Source: an uncultured Chloroflexota bacterium (GTDB lineage: Bacteria; Chloroflexota; Chloroflexia; Thermomicrobiales; UBA6265). From it: a stretch of 48,647 nucleotides of DNA. Position 1 is the first letter of the stretch. Every line of letters begins with the position of its first letter. Shown here in pieces: positions 8,844-42,219 of the stretch. The notes beneath the pieces were generated by a model. The model searched no databases, was not told the origin of the DNA, and was given only the letters and a program-made list of their open reading frames with translations. The position numbers and the translations under genes were made by a program. The DNA lies in contig CALMZR010000155.1 of assembly GCA_937870845.1 (NCBI GenBank), positions 1-48,647 of the forward strand, written 5' to 3'.

Positions 8844-9010
8844 CCTCGATCCTCCCCACCACGCGCCGCTCCGCGCGGACGCCCTGGTTCAACGGGGACC
8901 CTTCCCCAGGCCCCACGGCAGGCGCCTCGACAGGCCGCCATCAGCGAAATCGGCAAAAGGACGCGCCTTCCGCCGTCCGGACCTGACCGCGGCGATGATA
9001 CACCAGCCGT

Positions 9011-9137
9011 GAGTCGTGAGTCGTGAGTCGTGTGCTAGAACGTCGTTCGTAGGGCAAGCATCGCACTTGGCGGCTGGCCCTTGCGTTTGCCCCAACGCCT
9101 GTCCACTTTTCGACACACGACTCACGACTCACGACTC
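9011..9137. repeat. Paired heptamer array element A (GTGAGTC type)
   Basis: The left arm at 9011-9034 is tandem GAGTCGT heptamers ending GTGTG. The right arm at 9114-9137 is its exact reverse complement over 24 bases. The spacer of 79 bases (9035-9113) encodes nothing obvious. The right arm contains the nusB stop codon TGA (9131-9129). The transcript could fold a 24-base-pair stem between nusB and acpP. It is one of four GTGAGTC elements; the others are near 29791, 30480 and 42104. Confidence 0.9.
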
Positions 9138-9644
9138 GTAGATCGTGCGCAAGACGCCGTTGACGAATTTGCCGGAGTTCTCCCCGCCGAACCGCTTGGC
9201 CAGCTCCACCCCCTCGTTGATGGCGACTTTCGGCGGCACGCGCGGATCGTGGAAAAGCTCGTAGGTCGCCAAGCGCAGCACGTTGCGCTCGATGGCCGCC
9301 TGCTCCGCCAGGGCGCGTGCCGGCGCCGCGTCGGAGATGACAGGATCGAGCTCGTCCCGATGCTCGAGCACGCCCCGCACGAGGGATTGGACGTGCTTTC
9401 TTACGTCGCCCGCGACCGGTTCATGCTCGGCGAACGCCCGGCTCATCGCCTCTCCGGGGTCGTGATCCGTGAGGTCGAGCTCGTACAGCACTTGCAGGGC
9501 CAGCATTCGTCCCTGATGCCGGCGCGCCGCCGCGTCCGCCGAGCCGCCCAGACTCGCCCCTGTGCGCCGTTTCGGTTCGGGCGCTTCTCCCGATGATTCG
9601 CTCGCCAACGCAGGCTCCTTGTCTGTCCTCATAGCGCTATCCAC
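9129..9644 (-). CDS. nusB: Transcription antitermination factor NusB
   Basis: NusB binds boxA RNA with S10 in rRNA antitermination. The core from about residue 40 has [19 protein letters not shown] and the closing motif [13 protein letters not shown], both typical. The 171 residues include an N-terminal extension of about 40 residues rich in Glu, Ala and Arg. The start is uncertain between GTG at 9644 and ATG at 9632. It follows accC by 15 bases or more. The stop codon TGA lies inside the GAGTCGTGA of heptamer element A, so the last two residues Glu-Ser and the stop are array sequence. Confidence 0.93.
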
Positions 9645-11965: not shown

Positions 11966-12630
11966 TCCGAACCATCCCTCCTCGTTCCGTGACCGTATTC
12001 ATGCGCGGCGAGATGCGCCAATGTCAACGCGACCGCGCGCGGCAGCAGCCGGTGCTCGGCTTGCTTGATGCGCGCGTGGAGGCTGGCCTCGTCGTCTCCC
12101 GGCAGGAGCGGCACTTCCTCGCGCAGGATGACCGGTCCCGCGTCGACGGTTGGCGTGACGATGTGGACCGTGGCCCCCGTCACCGGAAGACCCAGCAATA
12201 GCGCGTCGCGCACGACCCGCGCCCCGCGCAGGGCGGGCGCCAGACCAGCGCTGGACTCTACCTTGCTGCCCTCGCCGTTCGGGAGCAACGCCGGATGCAC
12301 GTTGACGATCCGCCCCGGAAACCGATCCAGGAACGCCGGGCCGAGAATCAGCATCCACCCGGCCAGCACGATCAGGTCCGGGGCGAACGCCTCGACAACG
12401 TCGGCCAGTTGACGGTCGAACATCGCCCGCGCCATTGGATCGCGACGATTTGCGAGCGGCAGCGTCACCGTGGGTACGTGGGCGTCCATCGCCTTGCAGA
12501 CCGCGCCCGCGTCCCGGCGGTTGCTGACGACGACCGCGATCTCGGCGTCGAGCTCGCCCGCGGCGATGGCGTCGAGGAGCGCCTGCATGTTTGTCCCCGA
12601 GCCGGACGCGAGGACGGCGAGACGACTCAT
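11962..12630 (-). CDS. purN: Phosphoribosylglycinamide formyltransferase
   Basis: PurN transfers a formyl group from 10-formyl-THF to GAR. Catalytic residues are visible: Asn110 and His112 in NVHPALLP, and Asp163 in the TPTVDAGP segment. The start LAVLASGSGTNMQAL is the phosphate-binding loop. At 222 residues it is a little longer than usual, partly from an insertion after NVHPALLP (about 118-140) that replaces the short FPG-type loop. It overlaps purD and purE by four bases each. Confidence 0.96.
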   Translation of the reverse strand: MSRLAVLASGSGTNMQALLDAIAAGELDAEIAVVVSNRRDAGAVCKAMDAHVPTVTLPLANRRDPMARAMFDRQLADVVEAFAPDLIVLAGWMLILGPAFLDRFPGRIVNVHPALLPNGEGSKVESSAGLAPALRGARVVRDALLLGLPVTGATVHIVTPTVDAGPVILREEVPLLPGDDEASLHARIKQAEHRLLPRAVALTLAHLAAHEYGHGTRRDGSE

Positions 12631-13919
12631 GCCGAGACGAGCGCCGGGGTCAGCGCAATATCGCGCCGCATCTGCATGCCACGAAAGGAGACCTGGTCTG
12701 CTGCCGCGTAGGCGGTCTCTCGCGCTTCGGCCACGTTGAAGCCAGTTGCCACGACCGACACCACCCGCCCTCCGTCGGTGACGAGTTGCCGGTCACGCAG
12801 CGCGGTTCCGGCGTGAAAGACGAGCGCCCCGGCGTTGACGGCGTCAGCGATGCCGCGAATCGGGTCTCCGCGACGCGGCGCTTCCGGGTATCCCTCCGCC
12901 GCCAGCACGACGCACACCGCTGCTTCAGCAGAGGTTTCGATCGAGTCAGGCTCGAGCCGACCCTGCGCACAGTCGAGCAACACCCGCGCCACGTCGCCTT
13001 CCAGCAGCGGGAGAACGACCTGCGTCTCGGGGTCGCCGAGGCGGCAGTTGAACTCCAGCACGAATGGGCCGGATGCGGTCAGCATCAGCCCGGCGTAGAG
13101 CGTGCCCCGATAGGGGCGTCCTTCCGCTCGCATACCGGCAACGACGGGCTCCAGGATCGTCTCTCGCACCACCGCGAGCAGGTCCGGCGAGAGGCCATCT
13201 ACCGGCGAGTAACAGCCCATACCGCCGGTGTTCGGGCCGCGATCGCCGTCCTTGAGACGCTTGTAGTCGCGAGCGGGAGGCAGCACCGTGATTCGCTCCC
13301 CGTCAACGAGGGCGATGACGCTCAGCTCGTCGCCTTCCAGAAAACCCTCGATGACGATGCGCTCGCCCGCGGCCCCGAAGGCCTGCTCGTCGATCACCGA
13401 CCGGATCGCCGCTTCGGCCTCGGCGGGCGCCGCGCAGATGAGCACGCCCTTGCCCGCCGCCAATCCGTCCGCTTTGACCACGAGGGGATAGTCCGCCTGC
13501 CGAGCGAACGCGATGGCGGCGTCGGAATCGGTGAACACGGCGGAGTCCGCGGTCGGGATGCCGTGGCGACGCATGAAATCCTTGGCGAACGCCTTGGACC
13601 ATTCCAATTCGGCCGCTACACGGTCGGGGCCGAACACGGGGATGGCCCGCGCCCGCAGCTTATCGGCCAGCCCGAGCGCCAGCGGCGCCTCTGGCCCGAC
13701 CACCACCAGGCCGATCCGAGTGGCGGCGGCCCAGTCGGCGATGGCCTCGACCTCGGTCGCCGCGAGGTTGACGGTGTGTGCCAGCTCCGCAATGCCGGGA
13801 TTCCCCGGCGCCGCCCACAGGGCGCCGACCGACGGCGAGCGCGACAGCGCCCAAACCAGCGCGTGCTCCCTGGCCCCGGAGCCCACCACGAGGACGGATA
13901 GCAGTTCGCTGGTGGTCAT
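12627..13919 (-). CDS. purD: Phosphoribosylamine-glycine ligase (GAR synthetase)
   Basis: This ATP-grasp ligase joins phosphoribosylamine and glycine. VVGSGAREHALVWAL at the start is the family N-terminal signature. Also present are the ATP-grasp lysine region VVKADGLAAGKGV, GGMGCYSPVDGL and the catalytic EFNCRLGDPETQ segment. The 430 residues are of family length. It begins four bases inside the end of purCF and ends four bases inside purN, so translation is probably coupled throughout. Confidence 0.97.
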   Translation of the reverse strand: MTTSELLSVLVVGSGAREHALVWALSRSPSVGALWAAPGNPGIAELAHTVNLAATEVEAIADWAAATRIGLVVVGPEAPLALGLADKLRARAIPVFGPDRVAAELEWSKAFAKDFMRRHGIPTADSAVFTDSDAAIAFARQADYPLVVKADGLAAGKGVLICAAPAEAEAAIRSVIDEQAFGAAGERIVIEGFLEGDELSVIALVDGERITVLPPARDYKRLKDGDRGPNTGGMGCYSPVDGLSPDLLAVVRETILEPVVAGMRAEGRPYRGTLYAGLMLTASGPFVLEFNCRLGDPETQVVLPLLEGDVARVLLDCAQGRLEPDSIETSAEAAVCVVLAAEGYPEAPRRGDPIRGIADAVNAGALVFHAGTALRDRQLVTDGGRVVSVVATGFNVAEARETAYAAADQVSFRGMQMRRDIALTPALVSA

Positions 13920-16195
13920 CTGGCTGCCCCCGCTCGCTGTCTCTTCGCTTCATCCTCGGTGGCATCGATTTCCAGGGCATGCTTTGCCGAGGCGGCGTGG
14001 ACCGGGATCGGGTAGCGGCCCGTCAGGCACCCCATGCAGCGGTTGCGCTCCCCCGCCGCCCGAAGCAAACCCTCGAGACTGAGATACCCCAGCGTGTCCG
14101 CGCCGAGGTGACGGCGGATGCTCTCCAAATCGCGGCCATGGGCCAGCAGCGTCTCGCTCGCGCCCATGTCGATCCCGAAGTGGCACGTATGGGCGATCGG
14201 CGGCGCGGAGATGCGCAAATGGATCGCCGTCGCCCCGCCGCGGCGGAGCAGATCGACGATCTGCGGCATGGTGTTGCCGCGCACCACGCTGTCGTCGACG
14301 ATGACGACGCGTTTGTCCTTGACCGCGCCCCGCAGCGGGTTGAATTTCAACCGAATCCCCGACTCGCGCGAATGCTGATCGGGCTGGATGAAGGTTCGCC
14401 CCACGTAGCGGTTCTTGACCAGCCCTTCGCTGAGCGGGAGCCCCATCTCCTGCGCGTAGCCGATCGCCGCCGGCACCCCCGAATCGGGCACGCCAATGAC
14501 GAGATCGGCCTGCGCCGGATGCTCCTTCGCCAGCTCCCGGCCCATGGCCACACGCGCCTCGAACGCCGTTTGTCCGTCGAGCACGCTGTCGGGCCGGGCG
14601 AAGTAGATCTGCTCGAAGACGCACAGGGCCGGCGGGGGCGGATCCGGCATCAGGTCGGAGCGGAGCCCGGCGTCGTCGAGGCGGAGGATTTCGCCCGGCT
14701 GCACGTCGCGCACGAGATCGGCTCCGACCGTATCCAGCGCGCAGCTCTCCGAGGCGACCATCCAATGGTCGTCGCGCCAACCCAGGCAAAGCGGCCGCAA
14801 GCCGTACGGATCGCGCACGGCGAAGAGCGCGTCGTTGGTGAGAATCGTCAGGGAGTACGCCCCCGAGGCCAGCTCCATCATGCGCCGGATGCGCTCTTCC
14901 CAGGTCCCCTGTCCGTGCAGGATCAGCAGCGCCAGCAGCTCGCTGTCGGAGCCGGTGACCGGCTCCACGCCGCGCTCCCGCACCAGCCGCCGCAATTCGA
15001 TCGGGTTGACGACGTTGCCGTTGTGGGCCAGCGCCAGCGCCTCGTCGTTCGCCTCAACCAGCACCGGCTGCGCGTTTTCGATGCATGAGCTGCCGGTGGT
15101 CGAATAGCGCGTGTGCCCGATCGCCGCGACGCCCGTCAGCCCGTCGATCTGCTCCGGCCGAAAGACCTGATCGACCCGGCCCATGCCGAGCGCGACGCGA
15201 ATCCGCGCCTCCTCCAGCACGGCGACCCCCGCGCTCTCCTGGCCCCGGTGCTGCAACGCCATCAGCCCCAGCAGCGTCGTGCGCGCGACGTCGATCCCCT
15301 CGCCCCAGATGCCGAACACCCCGCACGCCTCGCGGGGACGACCGCTGGCCGCCTGCGCGGCATCACGCCCCTCTCCCTTCGCGAAAGGAGAGGGGTTGGG
15401 GTGAGGGATCTCTGAGGAGTTGGGGTGAATGTCCATCGCGCCGAACGCATCGCTCAGCTCCGCCACCTGGGCGTACTTGATCAACACCGTGCGCAGCGCC
15501 TCGTCGGTCACCTCGGCCGTATCGCGGTAGACCTGCTTGTCGAGCATCGCCTCCTTGCGCCCGCCCGGCCAGATGCGCCAGGAGTCGTTGTCGATGACGT
15601 CGGCCACGAGCAGCTCGCCGTCCGCGTCGCGCCCGAACTCGATCTTGAGGTCGACGAGCTGCACGTCCTGCTCCGCCCACGCCTGCTCCAGAGCGGTGAA
15701 AACCCGCCGGCCGATGGCGCGCAGCGCCTCGATCTCCTCCGCGGTCGCCACTCCGTGCTCTTCGATCCAGGCGTCGTCGACCAGGGGATCGTGGTTGGCG
15801 TCGTCCTTGAAGAAAAACTCCACCACTGTCGGCTCGAAGCGCGTCCCTTCCGGGACGGCGTTGCGCTTCAGGTAGGAACCGGCAGCAATGCGGCGCATGA
15901 CGACTTCGAGGGGGATCATCGCGCAGCGGCGCACGAGCATCTCGTCGTCGGCCGGGGCGTCGACGAAATGGCTCGGAATGCCCTCTTCGCGAAGCCGGCG
16001 GAAGACATTAGCGGTGGTGCGGCCGCTGAGCGCGCCCTTGCCCGGCAGCCGGTGGCGCCGGGCGCCGTCCCCCGCCGTGATGTCGTCCTTGTGGACGATG
16101 AGCGCCAGCGACGTATCCGAAGGGACCGCGTAGACCACCTTCGTCTTCCCTTCGGCCAGCAGCTCGCCGCGGTCGGTCGCACGATCGCTCGCCAT
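13916..16195 (-). CDS. purCF: PurC-PurF fusion: SAICAR synthetase plus amidophosphoribosyltransferase
   Basis: One frame of 759 residues joins two purine enzymes. Residues 1 to about 252 are PurC (AEGKTKVVYAV, KDDITAGDGA, SYLKRN, DVIDNDSWRIW). A linker of about 38 residues follows, and PurF begins at Ala290-Cys291-Gly with the nucleophilic glutaminase Cys. The glutaminase part has HTRYSTTG and HNGNVVNP. The transferase part has VIVDDSVVRGNTM. All four Fe-S cysteines expected of Bacillus-type PurF are present (CVFEQIYFARPD, HTCHFG, CMGC). Because Bacillus-type PurF must expose Cys1 by propeptide cleavage, the PurC half may act as a giant propeptide. ATG at 16195 is preceded by GGAGG; an upstream GTG at 16207 overlaps that site. 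Confidence 0.93.
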   Translation of the reverse strand: MASDRATDRGELLAEGKTKVVYAVPSDTSLALIVHKDDITAGDGARRHRLPGKGALSGRTTANVFRRLREEGIPSHFVDAPADDEMLVRRCAMIPLEVVMRRIAAGSYLKRNAVPEGTRFEPTVVEFFFKDDANHDPLVDDAWIEEHGVATAEEIEALRAIGRRVFTALEQAWAEQDVQLVDLKIEFGRDADGELLVADVIDNDSWRIWPGGRKEAMLDKQVYRDTAEVTDEALRTVLIKYAQVAELSDAFGAMDIHPNSSEIPHPNPSPFAKGEGRDAAQAASGRPREACGVFGIWGEGIDVARTTLLGLMALQHRGQESAGVAVLEEARIRVALGMGRVDQVFRPEQIDGLTGVAAIGHTRYSTTGSSCIENAQPVLVEANDEALALAHNGNVVNPIELRRLVRERGVEPVTGSDSELLALLILHGQGTWEERIRRMMELASGAYSLTILTNDALFAVRDPYGLRPLCLGWRDDHWMVASESCALDTVGADLVRDVQPGEILRLDDAGLRSDLMPDPPPPALCVFEQIYFARPDSVLDGQTAFEARVAMGRELAKEHPAQADLVIGVPDSGVPAAIGYAQEMGLPLSEGLVKNRYVGRTFIQPDQHSRESGIRLKFNPLRGAVKDKRVVIVDDSVVRGNTMPQIVDLLRRGGATAIHLRISAPPIAHTCHFGIDMGASETLLAHGRDLESIRRHLGADTLGYLSLEGLLRAAGERNRCMGCLTGRYPIPVHAASAKHALEIDATEDEAKRQRAGAAR
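15368..15395. repeat. REP-like 28-base palindrome inside the PurC-PurF linker
   Basis: CCCCTCTCC and GGAGAGGGG arms meet over a central TTCGCGAA with one mismatch. It is followed by GGTTGGGGTGAGGG. Palindromes of this type are usually intergenic. Here it lies in frame and encodes the Pro-Ser-Pro-Phe-Ala-Lys-Gly-Glu-Gly part of the linker. No second copy was seen in the window. Confidence 0.8.
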
Positions 16196-16209: not shown

Positions 16210-17238
16210 TCAGCCGCCGAGCCCCAGCAGACGGACCTGAGGAGCGTCCTCTTCCCCACGCGGAACGACCTCGCCGATGACGATCGCCCCGGCGACCGCG
16301 GCGAGCGCCTCGTTGACCCTGTCGGCCGGAAGTATGGCCACGAGCCCGATGCCCATGTTGAACACCCGGTACATCTCCAGCGCCGGAGTCGCGCCCGCGG
16401 CGGCGATTCCGCGAAAAATGGCCGGAACGTCCCAGGCGCCAGTGTCGATGTCAGCCGCGAGGTCGGAGGGGAGAATGCGGTCAATGTTGTCCATGTGGCC
16501 GCCGCCGGTGATGTGGGCAAAGGCCCGCGCTCCGGCGCCGATGAGCGCCTGGATCTCGCGCAGGTACGACCGATGCGGGGCAAGCAGCGCGTCGCCAACC
16601 GTCATGCCCAGCTCGGCGTCGAACGTATCCCAGATCGCGGACGGCAGCACGCGGCGGGCGAGGCTGTAGCCGTTGGTGTGCAGCCCGTGCGACGGCAGGC
16701 CAAGGAGAACGTCGCCGGCTTGGGGCTGCCCGTTGGCGCCGATCTCGGATCGGTCCAGCACGCCGACGATGAACCCCGCCACGTCGAACTCCCCCGGCGG
16801 GTAAACGTCCGGCATCTCCGCCGTCTCTCCGCCCAGCAGTGAGCACCCGGCGGCTTCGCACGCAGCCGCGATGCCTCCGACTAACGCGGCCACCACCTCC
16901 GCGTCGGCCCGGTGCAGCGCCAGGTAGTCGAGGAAGAAAAGCGGCCGCGCCCCCTGCACCGCGATGTCGTTGAGGCAGTGGTTGACGATGTCGGCCCCGA
17001 GCGAGTCGTAGCGGCCCAGCGCCGCGGCGATCTTCACTTTGGTGCCGATGCCGTCGGTGGAGGCCACAAGCACCGGGTCGCGGAAGGCGCCGGCAGCCCC
17101 GAGGCGAAACATCCCGCCGAAGGCTCCGACGTCGGCCAGCACCCCGGTTCCGCGCGTCCTCGCCACCAACTCGCCCACGCGCGCCTTGGTCCGCTTCGCA
17201 TCGTCGAGGTGGATGCCAACGCCTGCGTAGGTGGCCAT
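16210..17238 (-). CDS. purM: Phosphoribosylformylglycinamidine cyclo-ligase (AIR synthetase)
   Basis: PurM closes the imidazole ring to form AIR using ATP. The sequence has the family signatures: GVGIHLDDAKRTKARV at the start, GAFGGMFRL, VASTDGIGTKVKIA with the ATP-binding Asp, and HCLNDIAVQGARPLFFLDYLA. At 342 residues it has normal length. The ATG at 17238 lies 3 bases after the purQ stop, and purCF starts 14 bases after the purM stop. Confidence 0.97.
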   Translation of the reverse strand: MATYAGVGIHLDDAKRTKARVGELVARTRGTGVLADVGAFGGMFRLGAAGAFRDPVLVASTDGIGTKVKIAAALGRYDSLGADIVNHCLNDIAVQGARPLFFLDYLALHRADAEVVAALVGGIAAACEAAGCSLLGGETAEMPDVYPPGEFDVAGFIVGVLDRSEIGANGQPQAGDVLLGLPSHGLHTNGYSLARRVLPSAIWDTFDAELGMTVGDALLAPHRSYLREIQALIGAGARAFAHITGGGHMDNIDRILPSDLAADIDTGAWDVPAIFRGIAAAGATPALEMYRVFNMGIGLVAILPADRVNEALAAVAGAIVIGEVVPRGEEDAPQVRLLGLGG

Positions 17239-17241
17239 CGC

Positions 17242-18024
17242 TCAGCCTCGCGCCATGCGCACGGCGTTGGCAAAGATCGCCAACCCCGAGCCGCTTTCTC
17301 TACCCGCCGGCGCCATCCCTGGAGCGACGTTGCGCTCCGGGTGCGGCATGATCCCCAACACGTTGCCCACCCTGTTGGTTAACGCCGCGACCGCCCCATC
17401 CGATCCGTTCGGATTGACCGGGTAGGCGCCCTCACGCCCCGCTTCATCGCAGTAAACCAGCGCCACTTGCCCTCGCTCGTGCAATGCCTCCAGTGACGCG
17501 GGTCCACTGGCGGCGAACCGCCCTTCTCCGTGCGCGACCGGCATCGCGATCCGCTCGATCCCCTCCAGGAGCGGGCTTCGCCCCGCGGCTGGCCGCTGCA
17601 TCCACACCCAGCGGCACTCGAAACGCCCGGAAGCATTCGGGCCTAATGCGCCGCCTTCCAGCAACCCCAGGCGTAGCAGTGCCTGAAACCCATTGCAGAT
17701 GCCAAGCACCGGCCGTCCCGATTCCACGAACCGGTGAAGCGGTTCGCCCAGCTTCTCCAGGCGATGAGCCCAGAGCGTCCCCGCGCCAAGATGGTCGCCA
17801 AACGAGAACCCGCCAGGCAGGACGAGCATCGCGACATCGTCCAGAACGACTTCGCCGGCAAGCAGCCGCTCGAGGTGTATCGATCCGACGCGCGCCCCGG
17901 CGAGCTCCAGGGCCAGCGCCGTCTCCCGGTCGCAGTTCGTTCCCGGCGCGCGGAGAACGAGCGCGGCAGGGCGGTTCCCCACGCGTCGCGACGCGCCCCT
18001 TGGCCGGGTCGCAACGGCACTCAT
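17242..18024 (-). CDS. purQ: FGAM synthase glutaminase subunit PurQ
   Basis: PurQ supplies ammonia to PurL. The class I glutaminase core begins at LVLRAPGTNCDRETALALELAGA, has the oxyanion and nucleophile motif GICNGFQ (Cys nucleophile) and ends with the MPHPERN part of the triad. The N-terminus carries about 20 extra residues, MSAVATRPRGASRRVGNRPA, that have no counterpart in typical PurQ. The start overlaps the purSL stop by ATGA. PurS is not a separate gene but is fused to PurL, so the PurSLQ complex here should be two proteins. Confidence 0.95.
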   Translation of the reverse strand: MSAVATRPRGASRRVGNRPAALVLRAPGTNCDRETALALELAGARVGSIHLERLLAGEVVLDDVAMLVLPGGFSFGDHLGAGTLWAHRLEKLGEPLHRFVESGRPVLGICNGFQALLRLGLLEGGALGPNASGRFECRWVWMQRPAAGRSPLLEGIERIAMPVAHGEGRFAASGPASLEALHERGQVALVYCDEAGREGAYPVNPNGSDGAVAALTNRVGNVLGIMPHPERNVAPGMAPAGRESGSGLAIFANAVRMARG

Positions 18025-20924
18025 GCCCGCGCCTCCGCGAGCGGCGCTTGCCAGATCGCCCGCAATCCCTCGACATCGCGCTCAAGGAGCGGATGGCTGG
18101 CGCTGTGAACATGCAACCGCCGCTCCGCCACTACGCGCCCAATCCTCGCGTGGGGAAGACGACGCAGGACCACTTCGAACGCGGCGGCGTCCACTTCGGC
18201 GACCTCGATCAGGAATCGGGTCGGCGTTTCGGCGAAGAGGCGGACGGCATCGGAAAGACCAGATTCGGACACGGCCAGTCGGTCCAGATCGAGCTCCAGC
18301 CCGAGCCCACCCGCGATAGCCATCTCCGCCGCCGCGACGGCAAGGCCGCCTTCGCTCAGATCGTGGCACGACTGCACGAGCCCCTTGCGCATGGCGCGAT
18401 GGACCGTGCTCAGCGTGCGCCTGGCCGAGCCCAGGTCCACGATCGGGGCACGGCCTCCGCCTTGGCCGGTGAGTCTCAAGGCCAGCGATCCGCCCAGATC
18501 GTCCCCCGTCGTCCCGACCAGATAGATGGCGTTGCCGGGGCGCTTCAGGTGCATCGACACCGCGCCGCGCACGTCGGGTACAAGGCCGATGGCCGAGATG
18601 AGGAGCGTGCCGGGGATTGGATGCGTCGAGCCGTCGGCGAGCCGATACTCGTTGAACAGCGAATCCTTGCCGGAGATGAACGGCGTGCGGAAGGCGACCG
18701 CCGCGTCGTGGCACCCCTGCGCCGCCCGCACCAACCCCCCAAGGCGATCGGGGAGGTTCGGGTTGCCCCAGCAAAAGTTGTCGAGGAGCGCGGTGCGCGC
18801 CGGGTCCGCGCCGACCGCGACGATGTTGCGAAGCGCCTCGTCGACGGCTTGGAGCGCCATCGCGTAGGGATCGATCTCGCCGTACCAGGGATTGATGCCG
18901 CACCCCACGGCGACGCCTCGCCACGAGCGCGCCAGCGGGCGCAGCACCGCCGCGTCGGCCGGGCCGATGTCCATGGGGCCAACGAAAGGCTTGCCGACCG
19001 TCCGCCCCTGCACTTCGTGGTCGTACTGGCGGACGATGGTCTCCTTCGAGGCGACGTTCGGGTCGGCCAGCGCCCGTTCGAGCAACTCGGCAAGGTCAGC
19101 ATCGAGAGAAGTGGCAGGCGTCTGCGCCGTCCATGGCGACGGCTCCCACACGCTCTCCAGCATCCGCTGCGGCATGCCCTGGTGCAGAAACGCACAATCG
19201 AGATCGGCGACGACCTGCCGATCGTAGAGGACGCGCAGCCGCCCCTCGCCCGTGAAGCGCCCGATGGCTGTCGCCTCGACGCCTTCGCCTGCAAAGACGT
19301 CCTGCAATGCCGGCCAATGTGCCGGCGGCACGGCCAGCACCATCCGCTCCTGGGCTTCGGAGAGCCAGATTTCCCACGGCCGCAGCCCGTCGTACTTCAG
19401 CGGCACGCGCGCCAACTCGACCTCGGCGCCCAGTTCGCTCGCCATCTCGCCGACCGCCGAAGACAGCCCGCCCGCACCGCAATCGGTGATGGCGGTGTAG
19501 ATGCCCAGGTCGCGGGCTTTCGGCAAGGCATCTGCAAGCCGTTTCTCCACGATTGGGTCGCCGATCTGCACCACGCTGCCCAGCTCGGTGTGGCCTGCCC
19601 CCAACACGTCCGAAGAGAACGTGGCGCCGTGGATCCCGTCCCGTCCGGCTCGCCCCCCGGCGACGACAACCAGATCGCCTACCCGAGGCTCGGTCGGCCG
19701 GCGATTGCGCGGCGCCAGCCCAACCGTGCCGCAGAAAACGAGCGGGTTGGCCACATACCCCGGATCGAAGAGCGTCGCCCCGTTCACCGTGGGGATGCCC
19801 ATCTTGTTGCCGTAGTCGGCGATCCCGGCCACCACTCCGACATACACGTCCTCGGGCGGCAGCGTGCCCGGCGGGAGCGATGTCGGCGAAGTCTCCAGCG
19901 GGCCGAAGCAAAGCACGTCGGTGTTGGCGATCGGTTCCGCCGAAACGCCGAGCACGTCCCGCACCACACCGCCGACGCCGGTGTTCGCCCCGCCGAACGG
20001 CTCCAGGGCGCTCGGGTGGTTGTGCGTCTCGACCTTGAACGAGATCTCGTGGCCCCGGTCGAAAGCGATGACGCCGGCGTTGTCGCGGAACGCGGAGAGC
20101 ACCCAGGGTCGCTTCACCTTCTCCGTCGCGGCCATGATGTACGTCTTGAGCAGACCGCGAATCTCCCTCGCCTCGGCGCCGCGCTCCCGATGACGGATCG
20201 TCGCCTTGAACGTGCGATGCGCGCAGTGTTCGGACCAGGTCTGGGCGATCGTCTCCAGCTCGACATCGGTCGGGTCGCGGCCGAGCGCCTCGTAGTGGTC
20301 CCCGATGGCGGCCATGTCCTCACGCGGCAGCGAGAGAAGCCGTCGCGCACTCAGCTCCTGCAATTGGTCCGCGTCCAGCGCACGAATCGGGACGGTTTCG
20401 ACGGTAGGATCGGGTTGCGCCTCCGGCATGAACGCCCCGCGCTGCCACGCCTCGTCGGGGGGGCACGACGCTGGACGCCACGACACGCTTTCGACCACTT
20501 GGTGCGCCAGTCGGCGCGCGGCCGTGGCCACCAGCGCCGGATCGAGCGCTCCCTCGATCCGATAGCGATGCCCCGCCCGGGCGCGGACGCCAGCGAAGCC
20601 GTCGCGCGTCAAGGCGTCGGCAAGACTCTCCCCCTCGGCGTCGGTCACGCCAGGATGCGGCAGGATGTCGATGACCCAACCGGCCCCCGCGCAAACGTCC
20701 TCCCCAGGACGCGCCTCGGCGAGGATCGGATCGAGGCAGAGGTCGCGGATCGCCGCGTGAAAACGTGGGGAGGGAGGACCAGCAACCAGGTAGAGCCGGC
20801 CGTGGGTCACCGCTGGTGGGGTCGGGGTGAGATCGCTCAGGATGCGCGCGAGCGCGCGAGCATGGACATCAGCCGTTTGATCGCGGGGAACGATCTCGAG
20901 CGCCCCCACTGCGTCGATCGACAT
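18021..20924 (-). CDS. purL: PurSL: FGAM synthase with N-terminal PurS-like domain
   Basis: The 967-residue protein converts FGAR, with ammonia from PurQ and ATP, to FGAM. The N-terminal ~170 residues hold a PurS-like module (WVIDILPHPGVTDAEGESLADALTRDGF), so the PurS function is fused on. The PurL body starts near GDHYEALGRDPTDVELE and includes the ATP-binding HPSALEPFGGANTGVGG region, GGKAG-type glycine-rich strands and the C-terminal synthetase lobe. ATG at 20924 is preceded by a GTGGGGGGG site; the frame extends further upstream but without a convincing start. It leads the purine operon with 235 bases to fabG. Confidence 0.96.
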   Translation of the reverse strand: MSIDAVGALEIVPRDQTADVHARALARILSDLTPTPPAVTHGRLYLVAGPPSPRFHAAIRDLCLDPILAEARPGEDVCAGAGWVIDILPHPGVTDAEGESLADALTRDGFAGVRARAGHRYRIEGALDPALVATAARRLAHQVVESVSWRPASCPPDEAWQRGAFMPEAQPDPTVETVPIRALDADQLQELSARRLLSLPREDMAAIGDHYEALGRDPTDVELETIAQTWSEHCAHRTFKATIRHRERGAEAREIRGLLKTYIMAATEKVKRPWVLSAFRDNAGVIAFDRGHEISFKVETHNHPSALEPFGGANTGVGGVVRDVLGVSAEPIANTDVLCFGPLETSPTSLPPGTLPPEDVYVGVVAGIADYGNKMGIPTVNGATLFDPGYVANPLVFCGTVGLAPRNRRPTEPRVGDLVVVAGGRAGRDGIHGATFSSDVLGAGHTELGSVVQIGDPIVEKRLADALPKARDLGIYTAITDCGAGGLSSAVGEMASELGAEVELARVPLKYDGLRPWEIWLSEAQERMVLAVPPAHWPALQDVFAGEGVEATAIGRFTGEGRLRVLYDRQVVADLDCAFLHQGMPQRMLESVWEPSPWTAQTPATSLDADLAELLERALADPNVASKETIVRQYDHEVQGRTVGKPFVGPMDIGPADAAVLRPLARSWRGVAVGCGINPWYGEIDPYAMALQAVDEALRNIVAVGADPARTALLDNFCWGNPNLPDRLGGLVRAAQGCHDAAVAFRTPFISGKDSLFNEYRLADGSTHPIPGTLLISAIGLVPDVRGAVSMHLKRPGNAIYLVGTTGDDLGGSLALRLTGQGGGRAPIVDLGSARRTLSTVHRAMRKGLVQSCHDLSEGGLAVAAAEMAIAGGLGLELDLDRLAVSESGLSDAVRLFAETPTRFLIEVAEVDAAAFEVVLRRLPHARIGRVVAERRLHVHSASHPLLERDVEGLRAIWQAPLAEARA

Positions 20925-29288: not shown

Positions 29289-29894
29289 TCAGGCGCGAGC
29301 CGCGAGCTTCGCGCGCAGCGCGTCGCCCACGACCGCCGGCACGAGCCCGTCGATATCGCCGCCCAGCGCCGCCACCTCCCGGATGAGGCTCGAGCTGATG
29401 AAGGAGTGCCCGGAGGAGGTCATCAGGCAGACCACCTCGATCTCCGGCGCCAGGTGGGCGTTCATGTGCGCCAGCTTGAACTCGTACTCGAAATCCGAGA
29501 CCGCGCGCAACCCACGCACGATCACCCCAGCATTGCGAGCCCGGGCGTAATCTACGGTCAGCCCGGAAAAGCTGTCAACGACGATGTTGCCCTCCGGCGC
29601 GCCGGCCGCTGCCGCCCGCGCCAGCGCGATCCGCTCCTGCGTCGAAAAGAGCGCCCCCGGCTTCTCCTGCCCTTCATAGACGGCGACGATCACCTCGTCG
29701 AACAGCCGGGCCGCCCGCCGCGCCACGTCGACGTGACCCAGCGTAATCGGATCGAAGCTCCCCGGATAGATCGCTCGTCGCGGATTCGAGACGAGTCGTG
29801 AGTCGTGGGTCGTGAATCGTGAGTCGTTGGGCGACAATTCGACCGAGTCGCGCCGACCGGTTTCGCACGGTTTTTCTTCCGACTGACGACTCAC
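29289..29894 (-). CDS. coaD: Phosphopantetheine adenylyltransferase
   Basis: CoaD makes dephospho-CoA from phosphopantetheine and ATP. The core begins at RRAIYPGSFDPITLGHVDVA (29789 down), has the ISSSLIREVAALGGDI motif and ends normally. Family members start at about that point. Here the preceding ~35 codons are heptamer-array sequence, giving [16 protein letters not shown]. In-frame start options are GTG at 29894, which has GGAG 9 bases upstream, and TTG at 29837. No ATG is available near the core. The start therefore cannot be settled from sequence, and the protein may carry an array-encoded N-terminus. Confidence 0.93.
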   Translation of the reverse strand: MSRQSEEKPCETGRRDSVELSPNDSRFTTHDSRLVSNPRRAIYPGSFDPITLGHVDVARRAARLFDEVIVAVYEGQEKPGALFSTQERIALARAAAAGAPEGNIVVDSFSGLTVDYARARNAGVIVRGLRAVSDFEYEFKLAHMNAHLAPEIEVVCLMTSSGHSFISSSLIREVAALGGDIDGLVPAVVGDALRAKLAARA

Positions 29895-29909
29895 GACTCA
29901 CGACTCCGT
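29791..29909. repeat. Paired heptamer array element B (GTGAGTC type)
   Basis: Left arm 29791-29830 and right arm 29880-29909 carry heptamers of GTGAGTC (with GTGGGTC, GTGAATC and GTCAGTC variants) in opposite orientation. The spacer is about 50 bases. The right arm contains the rsmD stop codon; the left arm lies in the coaD 5' region. Pairing is good but not exact: one extra G in the right arm. Confidence 0.85.
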
Positions 29910-30464
29910 CTCGTAGATCGAAAAGCAACTGTCGCCGTGGCAGCGCTCGCGCAAGCGGACCAGGCGCCCGGCCTGCTCGGGCAGCGTCACCCGCGGCGAG
30001 TGCCCGATCGCCAGGATCGTATCCGAGTCTACCAACGGGGAGCGCCCGACCCGCTCCAACGTGGCGACGAGATCCGGATCGGCGTAGGGCGGGTCCATGA
30101 CGATCAGGTCGTACGGCGCGGCATCCGCCGGGCTACGCTCGGCGCGGCCAAGGAAGCTCGATACCGATTCCTGATAGACGCGAGTCACGTTCGCGTAGCG
30201 GGTGTGGGCCAGGTTGGCCCGCACCACCGCCGCCGCCGCCGCGTTCTGCTCCACGAAATCGGCCGTCTCCGCCCCGCGCGACAACGCCTCGATGCCGATG
30301 CCGCCGGTGCCGGCATACAGATCGAGCACCCGCACCGGCTCCACCCCCAGCGAGGCGAGCATCGAGAAAAGCGCGCCCTTGATCTTGTCGGCCATTGGCC
30401 GGGTGAACTTTCCCGCCGGCCCCTTGAGCTGAAACCCTCGTCGTTCGCCAGCAATGACGCGCAT
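29898..30464 (-). CDS. rsmD: 16S rRNA (guanine966-N2)-methyltransferase RsmD
   Basis: The 188-residue methyltransferase has the start MRVIAGERRGFQLKGP, the SAM loop DLYAGTGGIGIEALSRG and the catalytic box VMDPPYADPD. Length is normal from ATG at 30464, and the longer frame upstream is array and leader sequence. It ends YETES followed by TGA at 29900-29898, and that GAGTCGTGA is the first heptamer of element B. Element C lies 16 bases upstream of the start. Confidence 0.95.
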   Translation of the reverse strand: MRVIAGERRGFQLKGPAGKFTRPMADKIKGALFSMLASLGVEPVRVLDLYAGTGGIGIEALSRGAETADFVEQNAAAAAVVRANLAHTRYANVTRVYQESVSSFLGRAERSPADAAPYDLIVMDPPYADPDLVATLERVGRSPLVDSDTILAIGHSPRVTLPEQAGRLVRLRERCHGDSCFSIYETES

Positions 30465-30479
30465 GGGGGGAGTATGACC

Positions 30480-30597
30480 GGAGTCGTGAGTCGTGAGTCG
30501 TGAGTCGAAAGAACGATGTCCGGCGGCGTCGGGGTTGGTCGGGCCGGCCGCATCGCCTTGCGTCTTACGACTTTCGACTTTCGACTCACGACTCGGC
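30480..30597. repeat. Paired heptamer array element C (GTGAGTC type)
   Basis: The left arm 30480-30511 holds four GTGAGTC-like units and ends GTCGAAAG. The right arm 30563-30597 holds GACTTTC and GACTCAC units in reverse orientation. The middle heptamers differ (GTCGAAA instead of GTCGTGA), so pairing is partial. The spacer is about 50 bases. It lies between the 30724 gene and rsmD. Confidence 0.8.
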
Positions 30598-30610
30598 CTA
30601 CAAACACGAA

Positions 30611-40800: not shown

Positions 40801-42120
40801 ATGGACCTGAAGCGCCGCGCCGCCCGCAAACGGCAGAACCAGCCGGAAAGGAAGCGACGGGTGACGCCACGCCGCAACCGCCCGCAACGCGCTCGCCCCA
40901 TGCTCCTGCCGGCGGGCCACGGCGACGAAACCGAGACCGTCATCGAGCGGATCGTGCCCGGCGGCCTCGGGCTCGGCCACGGCGGTGGCCGCACCCTCTT
41001 CGTCTCCCGAGCAGCGCCCGGGGACCGCGTGCGCGTCCGCATCGACCGCGAGCAGGGCCGCGTGGCGCACGCCTCCATCGTCGAGATCCTCGAACCAGGC
41101 CCCGATCGCGTCCCGGAGCCTTACCCCCTCCTCTCTCGCTGCGGGGCCGATTTCCAACACCTGCGGTACGAGGCGCAGCTCGCCGCCAAGTCGGCCATGA
41201 TCGGCGACAGCCTCCGCCGCATTGGCGGCATTCAGCTCGACGACCCGGTGCAGGTCGCCCCATCGCCGCAGACGTGGCGGTACCGGGCCAGAGCCGATTG
41301 GCGGCACGATCCGGCGCAACCGGCGCTTGGCTACCTGGAAACCGGAACTCATCGCGTCATCGATCTGCCAGACGACCCGTTCGTCCTCCCCGCCCTCGGC
41401 GAGCGGTTCGCCCAACTCAGGGAACGAGTCGCCCAGGGACGCCTCCCGGAATGGGCGACGGAGCTGCGCGCTGCCGCCGGCGACGACGGCATCTCGTTCG
41501 CGCCGCCGTTGGAGCTGCCCCAGCCCGTGCCCGTCCACGCCAAAGTCGCCGGCGAGAGGTACGCCTACGACGCCGACTGTTTCTTCCAAATCAACCCATA
41601 CGTCCTCCACGGTCTGTTGGACGACGCGCTCCGCTTCACCCCGGAGCCGGGGTCTTCAGAGTCTGCATCTCGCCTCGCAATCGATCTCTATTGCGGCGTC
41701 GGCCTCTTCACCGTTCCGTTGGCCCGCCGCTTCGAGCGCGTCATCGGGGTCGAGGGCCAGCCCCGCGCCGCCGAGTTCGCGCAGCGCAACGTCGCAACCG
41801 CCGGCTTGCGCAACGCGCAGATCGAGATCGCCTCTGTCGAGCGCTGGCTGGACGGCGCCTACCGCAGCCACGGGCGCGCTCCGTTTGTGCTCCTCGACCC
41901 GCCGCGCGCCGGGCTCCCGGCCAGCGGCCTGCGCGCGCTGCCCCGGCTGCGCGCCACCCGTATTACCTACGTCTCGTGCGACCCCGCCACCCTCGCCCGC
42001 GACCTGAAGGGGCTGCTGGCATCCGGTTACACGTTGCACTCGGTCGCCGGCTTCGACATGTTCCCGCAGACGCACCACGTCGAGATCGTGGCGCATCTTG
42101 AACGAAGTCGTGAGTCGTAG
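40801..42120 (+). CDS. rlmD: 23S rRNA (uracil-5-)-methyltransferase, RumA/RlmD family
   Basis: The 439-residue protein has an Arg-rich N-terminus, a TRAM RNA-binding domain (about 55-110, GGLGLGHGGGRTLFV), the SAM loop AIDLYCGVGLFTVPLARR and the C-terminal SCDPATLARDLKGLL, whose Cys is the RumA nucleophile. It also ends with the FPQTHHVEIVAHL motif. The Fe-S cysteines of E. coli RumA are mostly missing: CGGC is CGAD here. So it may not carry the cluster. The stop TAG follows GAGTCG in heptamer element D, so the last residues Arg-Glu-Ser are array sequence. Confidence 0.9.
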   Translation: MDLKRRAARKRQNQPERKRRVTPRRNRPQRARPMLLPAGHGDETETVIERIVPGGLGLGHGGGRTLFVSRAAPGDRVRVRIDREQGRVAHASIVEILEPGPDRVPEPYPLLSRCGADFQHLRYEAQLAAKSAMIGDSLRRIGGIQLDDPVQVAPSPQTWRYRARADWRHDPAQPALGYLETGTHRVIDLPDDPFVLPALGERFAQLRERVAQGRLPEWATELRAAAGDDGISFAPPLELPQPVPVHAKVAGERYAYDADCFFQINPYVLHGLLDDALRFTPEPGSSESASRLAIDLYCGVGLFTVPLARRFERVIGVEGQPRAAEFAQRNVATAGLRNAQIEIASVERWLDGAYRSHGRAPFVLLDPPRAGLPASGLRALPRLRATRITYVSCDPATLARDLKGLLASGYTLHSVAGFDMFPQTHHVEIVAHLERSRES

Positions 42121-42219
42121 GTCATGAGTCGTGAGCCGGGAAGCTGAGTTGATTCGGAATCGACTCGGGTTCGAAGTTGCTGACTCACGACTCACGGCCT
42201 ACCACTCACGACCCGCTCA
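42104..42219. repeat. Paired heptamer array element D (GTGAGTC type)
   Basis: Left arm 42104-42142 and right arm 42171-42219 carry GTGAGTC-type units in opposite orientation; about 31 positions pair with a few mismatches (for example GTCGTGAGTCGTAGG against its reverse complement). The element spans exactly from the stop region of rlmD to the stop of the convergent gene at 42217, so both stop codons lie in its arms. Confidence 0.85.

Follow-up and report, generated by a model that had tools for sequence, protein, structure and literature searches.

The purC-purF fusion gene

Contig CALMZR010000155.1 of an uncultured Chloroflexota bacterium of the Thermomicrobiales (assembly GCA_937870845.1) was analyzed over its full 48,647 nucleotides, hereafter the window. 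Its reverse strand carries a fusion of the purine biosynthesis genes purC and purF, a single open reading frame (ORF; 13916..16195) of 759 codons for a 759-residue protein, which runs from an ATG at 16193-16195, with GGAGGAG immediately 5' of it, to a TGA at 13916-13918. Residues 10-251 (15443..16168, reverse strand) form the SAICAR synthetase (PurC) domain, delimited by PF01259, the ends of standalone PurCs and an alignment with the PAICS structure 6yb8. The Pfam model PF01259 (SAICAR_synt) matches residues 13-235 with 224.5 bits against a gathering score of 20, while the NCBIfam purC equivalog TIGR00081 gives 164.9 bits, below its cut-off of 189.9. Standalone PurCs miss this cut-off as well (171.7 and 147.2 bits for two of two from family f30 in the same phylum, 97.1 bits for one on a viral contig), and the PurC subtype rather than the fusion therefore seems to be responsible.

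C-terminal to the SAICAR synthetase, Pfam detects a glutamine amidotransferase and a phosphoribosyltransferase domain. Residues 291-759 (13919..15325, reverse strand) constitute the amidophosphoribosyltransferase PurF, as indicated by structural similarity (see below) and by the NCBIfam model TIGR01134 (purF), which matches residues 291-729 with 484.3 bits (cut-off 350). Cys291 (codon 15323..15325, reverse strand), the predicted N-terminal nucleophile of mature PurF, occupies position 1 of TIGR01134 and corresponds to Cys1 of Bacillus subtilis PurF (1ao0/1gph); C525, C671, C720 and C723 pair with the four Fe-S cysteines of the same enzyme. The original prediction, made from this DNA sequence, of a PurC-PurF fusion with an internal PurF Cys and all four Bacillus-type Fe-S cysteines is thus confirmed, with both domains complete in one ORF. 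The proposed linker ahead of Cys291 is also present (residues 252-290; 15326..15442, reverse strand), although it measures 39 residues and not 38. Standalone PurCs end at the equivalent of F251, those of viral contigs at this residue or a few residues from it, and the fused PurC is therefore complete.

Distribution of the fusion

Among 61 genomes (60 relatives and the window's own), fused matches were found in three genomes of the window's genus (G001, G002 and G003) and in two further genera of its family, one represented by G015 and G026 and the other by G016. The PurC-PurF junction is in frame in all seven genomes that show it, the window's and six others, which span three genera of one Chloroflexota family and whose proteins share 73-87% identity with that of the window. 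Recurrence of this frame in six other genomes rules out both chance and a single sequencing error. For G003, the start of PurC is not on the junction contig and the remainder lies on another contig, whereas the two matches in G026 share one frame and proved on reading to be one ORF. In two additional genomes, G029 and G031, fragments of a PurF belonging to this clade lie at the end of a contig, so that the junction is out of view.

In the class (158 genomes), no further match among those listed covers both domains. Across the phylum (400 genomes, matches with E <= 1e-150), four f30 genomes match both domains with internal stops; on reading, purM, purC and purF proved to be individual genes that lie next to each other in this order, with purD next in one reading. 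The class of G219 (47 genomes, E <= 1e-160) gave nothing beyond the same four genomes. Finally, a degenerate junction pattern was used to scan a public genome collection and returned six stretches, which are the six relatives only (CAIPGK010000029.1, CADCWF010000185.1, JACCXM010000356.1, JAICJJ010000176.1, JAHWJF010000084.1 and JADYYO010000022.1, titled Thermomicrobiales, Chloroflexia or Chloroflexi); the pattern fits this PurC subtype only, with 111-171 bases between motifs, so that the window itself (201 bases) falls outside it. The fusion genomes come from separately named projects of metagenome-assembled genomes (MAGs).

Two candidates suggested by open-frame lengths, a large fusion in G005 and a fusion of PurF with PurD in G029, were rejected on inspection of the reading frames. 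Likewise rejected as a fusion were purC and purF of L112, a contig of the IMG/VR virus collection, on which the two genes are adjacent and separate. L112 and two further contigs of this collection (L113 and L114) encode PurFs of the Met-Cys start type; purC precedes PurF on L112, and a purD-like gene follows it on L112 and L114.

Linker and prosequence motif

The linker from the PurC end to the Cys ranges from nine residues in G026 to 39 in the window. Its last six residues are DKPREA in G001, G003, G015 and G016, DKPQEA in G002, DTPREA in G026 and GRPREA in the window, with E289-A290-C291 invariant in all seven genomes. Outside these six residues the linker drifts and the relatives have no motif in common. 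At the corresponding site, the 48 standalone PurFs compared from the phylum mostly have D-x-P-x-[EH]-[EA], with E (30), A (15) or K (3) at position -1. As only the last six linker residues are alike and match standalone PurFs, the clade appears to keep an old prosequence end, and GRPREA is taken as the window's prosequence motif, ahead of the bond that is presumed to be cut.

The length of the window linker is due to a dispersed palindromic repeat within it. The repeat core (15367..15407) is in frame and occurs at no fewer than 40 other places in the same genome at E <= 2.7e-7, a count based on the 40 of 143 candidates that were scored; matches reach about 15428 in some copies. Linkers of the relatives lack the repeat, which was therefore probably inserted after the fusion and is probably tolerated within an enzyme of central metabolism. 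A strong hairpin was considered for the repeat and rejected, the value obtained as DNA being weak (z -1.75).

Selection, copy number and genomic context

Comparison of the window with the six relatives gave ratios of nonsynonymous to synonymous substitution rates (dN/dS) of 0.10-0.23 for PurC and 0.05-0.21 for PurF; both domains are under purifying selection. For the linker, dN is about 1, near saturation, over only 13-20 codons. Across the nine genomes of the clade, PF01259 identifies one PurC in six, matches two separate pieces in G003 and has no match in G029 or G031, while TIGR01134 identifies one PurF above the cut-off in eight, the truncated PurF of G029 scoring below it. The remaining TIGR01134 matches score weakly and are consistent with related amidotransferases; neither a second PurC nor a second PurF above the cut-off was found in these nine genomes. 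The fused ORF is thus real, present in a single copy, conserved across the clade and under selection to either side of the linker.

The fusion is located within a purine operon of purL, purQ, purM, the fusion, purD, purN and purE, whose gene ends mostly overlap or nearly touch. Directly upstream lies purM (16210..17238, reverse strand; AIRS and AIRS_C), and purD follows (12627..13919, reverse strand; GARS_N, GARS_A and GARS_C), its start sharing four bases (ATGA) with the purF stop. The order purM-purC-purF-purD persists with separate genes in family f30, and the fusion most likely arose in such an operon by loss of the purC stop and the purF start. A tree of 57 PurFs unites the clade's nine sequences in one group (100/100) and places those of other members of the same family with the order, apart from these nine; long branches meet in this tree, and it does not show the origin of the clade's PurFs. 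PurC of the clade shares 32-38% identity, where matched, with PurC of the rest of the family. These sequence comparisons fit a scenario in which the purine genes were replaced by a set that is foreign or of ancient divergence, for which no donor was found.

In G026, PurC, PurF and PurD lie in one open frame up to the contig end (CAIPGK010000029.1, 3818-7105), with a short linker between PurF and PurD. The PurD part, which is cut by the contig end, scores 440.6 bits with TIGR00877 (cut-off 288). This second junction is seen on one contig of one MAG, and purF has its stop in all seven other sequences that show its end (window, G001, G002, G015, G016, G029 and G031). If real, it would provide a natural construct for the question of phosphoribosylamine transfer; according to a review, a stable PurF-PurD association has been sought unsuccessfully (PMC10912719). 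G001 has a different, GC-rich stretch after the purF stop (L088, 5501-5570), at the place where the window has the overlap with the purD start.

Several other features of the window were recorded. PurL (18021-20924) has about 190 additional N-terminal residues ahead of its linker domain, which sit where large PurLs carry a PurS-like domain, and a separate PurQ is encoded beside it; this PurL resembles the archaeal mdPurL described in PMC3261824. Four hairpin-like elements (8997-9144, 29792-29911, 30475-30599 and 42102-42219) have inverted arms built from 7-base repeats of the GTCGTGA type, and a gene that resembles rsmD lies between two of these elements. An Rfam scan of the window at the gathering threshold gave no matches.

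Predicted structure and processing of the fusion protein

Class II amidotransferases require Cys as their first residue, and anything fused ahead of PurF would therefore seem to be ruled out in the absence of cleavage. The glutaminase residues C291, R363, N392, G393 and D417 are invariant in all seven genomes. Since these residues, which serve no purpose unless the Cys is N-terminal and free, are kept in the clade, the Cys is probably freed.

AlphaFold modelling with seven close sequences was not usable (mean predicted local distance difference test score, pLDDT, of 39.3), while an alignment of 24 rows that included viral PurC and PurF reached a mean pLDDT of 78.2 and a predicted template modelling score of 0.57. 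In the latter model, pLDDT stays below 50 for residues 254-290, and residue 291 opens the initial strand of PurF, so that a predicted disordered linker directly precedes the first strand of the N-terminal nucleophile (Ntn) fold. The modelled PurF superimposes on 1ao0 (Z 43.6, root-mean-square deviation (rmsd) 2.8, 432 residues) with residue 291 on residue 1, and on GPRAT2 of Arabidopsis thaliana (6lbp; Z 44.0, rmsd 2.8, 439 residues) with residue 291 on residue 87, both of which are N-termini after cutting. For the modelled PurC, residues 7-256, the top structural match is PAICS 6yb8 (Z 31.1, rmsd 2.1, 250 residues).

Autocatalytic cleavage of one PurC-PurF precursor at Ala290/Cys291, with release of PurC and mature PurF, is considered probable. 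The gene product would be a single precursor chain, in which the PurF domain would fold and then cut its own chain before the nucleophile Cys, as Bacillus-type PurF does. This would yield equal amounts of PurF with an N-terminal Cys for purine step 1 and of PurC with a C-terminal tail for step 8, a whole enzyme standing in for the usual short propeptide. The conserved junction, the glutaminase residues, the prosequence motif and the predicted disordered linker at the Ntn strand make self-cleavage, as put forward in the original prediction, the best-supported reading; it is preferred because PurF domain, motif and flexible linker are present and no new part is required. Several points weigh against it: the cut at Ala290/Cys291 is one that we infer, the motif of the window (GRPREA) deviates from DKPREA, the residues before Cys291 may be conserved for structural reasons, and we know of no PurF that cleaves itself behind a folded enzyme. 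Precedents for a processed N-terminus are available in two reports. E. coli PurF requires its N-terminal Cys for the use of glutamine and can use ammonia without it, and B. subtilis PurF exposes its Cys when a short peptide is cleaved off (PMC3261824). For A. thaliana GPRAT2, the N-terminal part is removed and Cys87 exposed, also when the protein is produced in E. coli (PMC7056826).

The main rival to autocleavage, though an unlikely one, is internal initiation in the end of purC, which would yield a separate PurF with its own prosequence and leave the fused chain as a by-product or as PurC only. An ATG in frame and no more than 37 codons ahead of the Cys occurs in four of the seven genomes, the nearest at -37 in the window, -14 in G026, -31 in G015 and -32 in G016, yet none of these four has a Shine-Dalgarno match. 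The window's codon (15434..15436, reverse strand) is the ATG that had been suggested as an alternative PurF start with a 36-residue prosequence. The codon exists, but it is absent from all six relatives and is an unlikely start; a separate PurF initiated there is unsupported, and the codon was rejected as a conserved PurF start. In G001, G002 and G003, the remaining members of the window's genus, there is no ATG between the Cys and the methionine of an MLDKQ motif inside PurC, at -54 or -55. This methionine represents a possible internal start, with AGGA or AGGAG 3-4 bases upstream in all six relatives, the window reading AAGGAGGCGATG at that site; however, it is a conserved PurC residue that is found in separate PurCs too. 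GTG codons are also present, for example at -12 in G015 with GAGG 10 bases upstream. Among the standalone PurFs, 41 of 48 have an ATG 7-33 codons (median 10) before the Cys, and the clade therefore seems to have lost its PurF start. A short prosequence with its own nearby start codon, which is typical but not strictly defining of Bacillus-type PurF, is not found here.

It is improbable that the chain stays whole, with PurF using ammonia or its internal Cys working without a free N-terminus. Ammonia does remain usable by E. coli PurF lacking the Cys, as noted above, but the glutaminase residues are invariant and the dN/dS of PurF is low in the clade, in contrast to the crenarchaeal PurF' proteins, in which the Cys is lost (PMC3261824). 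Cleavage by a host protease within the linker, followed by trimming to Cys291 by PurF or an aminopeptidase, would suit a disordered and freely evolving segment; with a linker of just nine residues in G026 and no shared motif beyond the last six residues, we hold it to be quite improbable. An assembly or sequencing artefact, for instance an error that removed a stop between the domains, has a negligible probability and is refuted for the PurC-PurF junction by its identical in-frame presence in seven genomes, even though every member found in the pattern scan is metagenome-assembled.

If autocleavage takes place, it is tentatively conceivable, though doubtful, that cutting is timed, e.g. by Fe-S loading, so that the two-enzyme form also has its own function before cutting. 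The use of the fusion may lie in supplying both enzymes in equal amounts, or it may be a neutral gene fusion that cleavage renders harmless. Because other reactions separate steps 1 and 8 in the pathway, product transfer between them is not expected.

Comparison with known systems

A review describes the enzymes of purine step 1 as monofunctional in both mammals and bacteria (PMC10912719), and no report of a PurC-PurF fusion was found in the open-access literature searched (fusion, PurF propeptide, Chloroflexi). The fusion shares with animal PAICS, a PurC-PurE fusion (6yb8, 4ja0), a similar PurC at the N-terminus of fused purine enzymes; there, however, the partner is PurE and cleavage is unnecessary. 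Its PurF resembles the Bacillus-type enzyme (1gph/1ao0) in fold, glutaminase residues, the four Fe-S cysteines and the presumed cut just before the nucleophile Cys. The propeptide of B. subtilis PurF is short, reportedly 11 residues, whereas here it would comprise 290 residues including a whole enzyme. In Arabidopsis GPRAT2 (6lbp), the N-terminal extension is not an enzyme and is said to consist of a transit peptide and a propeptide. It is likewise long (86 residues) and removed to expose Cys87 (PMC7056826).

An upstream domain and an internal nucleophile that is made N-terminal by autocleavage are also features of other Ntn hydrolases. Examples are penicillin acylase and gamma-glutamyltransferase. 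In such two-chain enzymes both chains belong to one enzyme, whereas the fusion described here joins two enzymes of separate steps. If cleaved as proposed, it would be new as a propeptide-processed PurF whose propeptide is itself an enzyme. As a conserved natural exception, it allows a direct test of the size of propeptide that PurF is able to remove, and of whether self-cleavage of the Ntn type, which in the two-chain hydrolases divides a single enzyme, can split a metabolic polyprotein.

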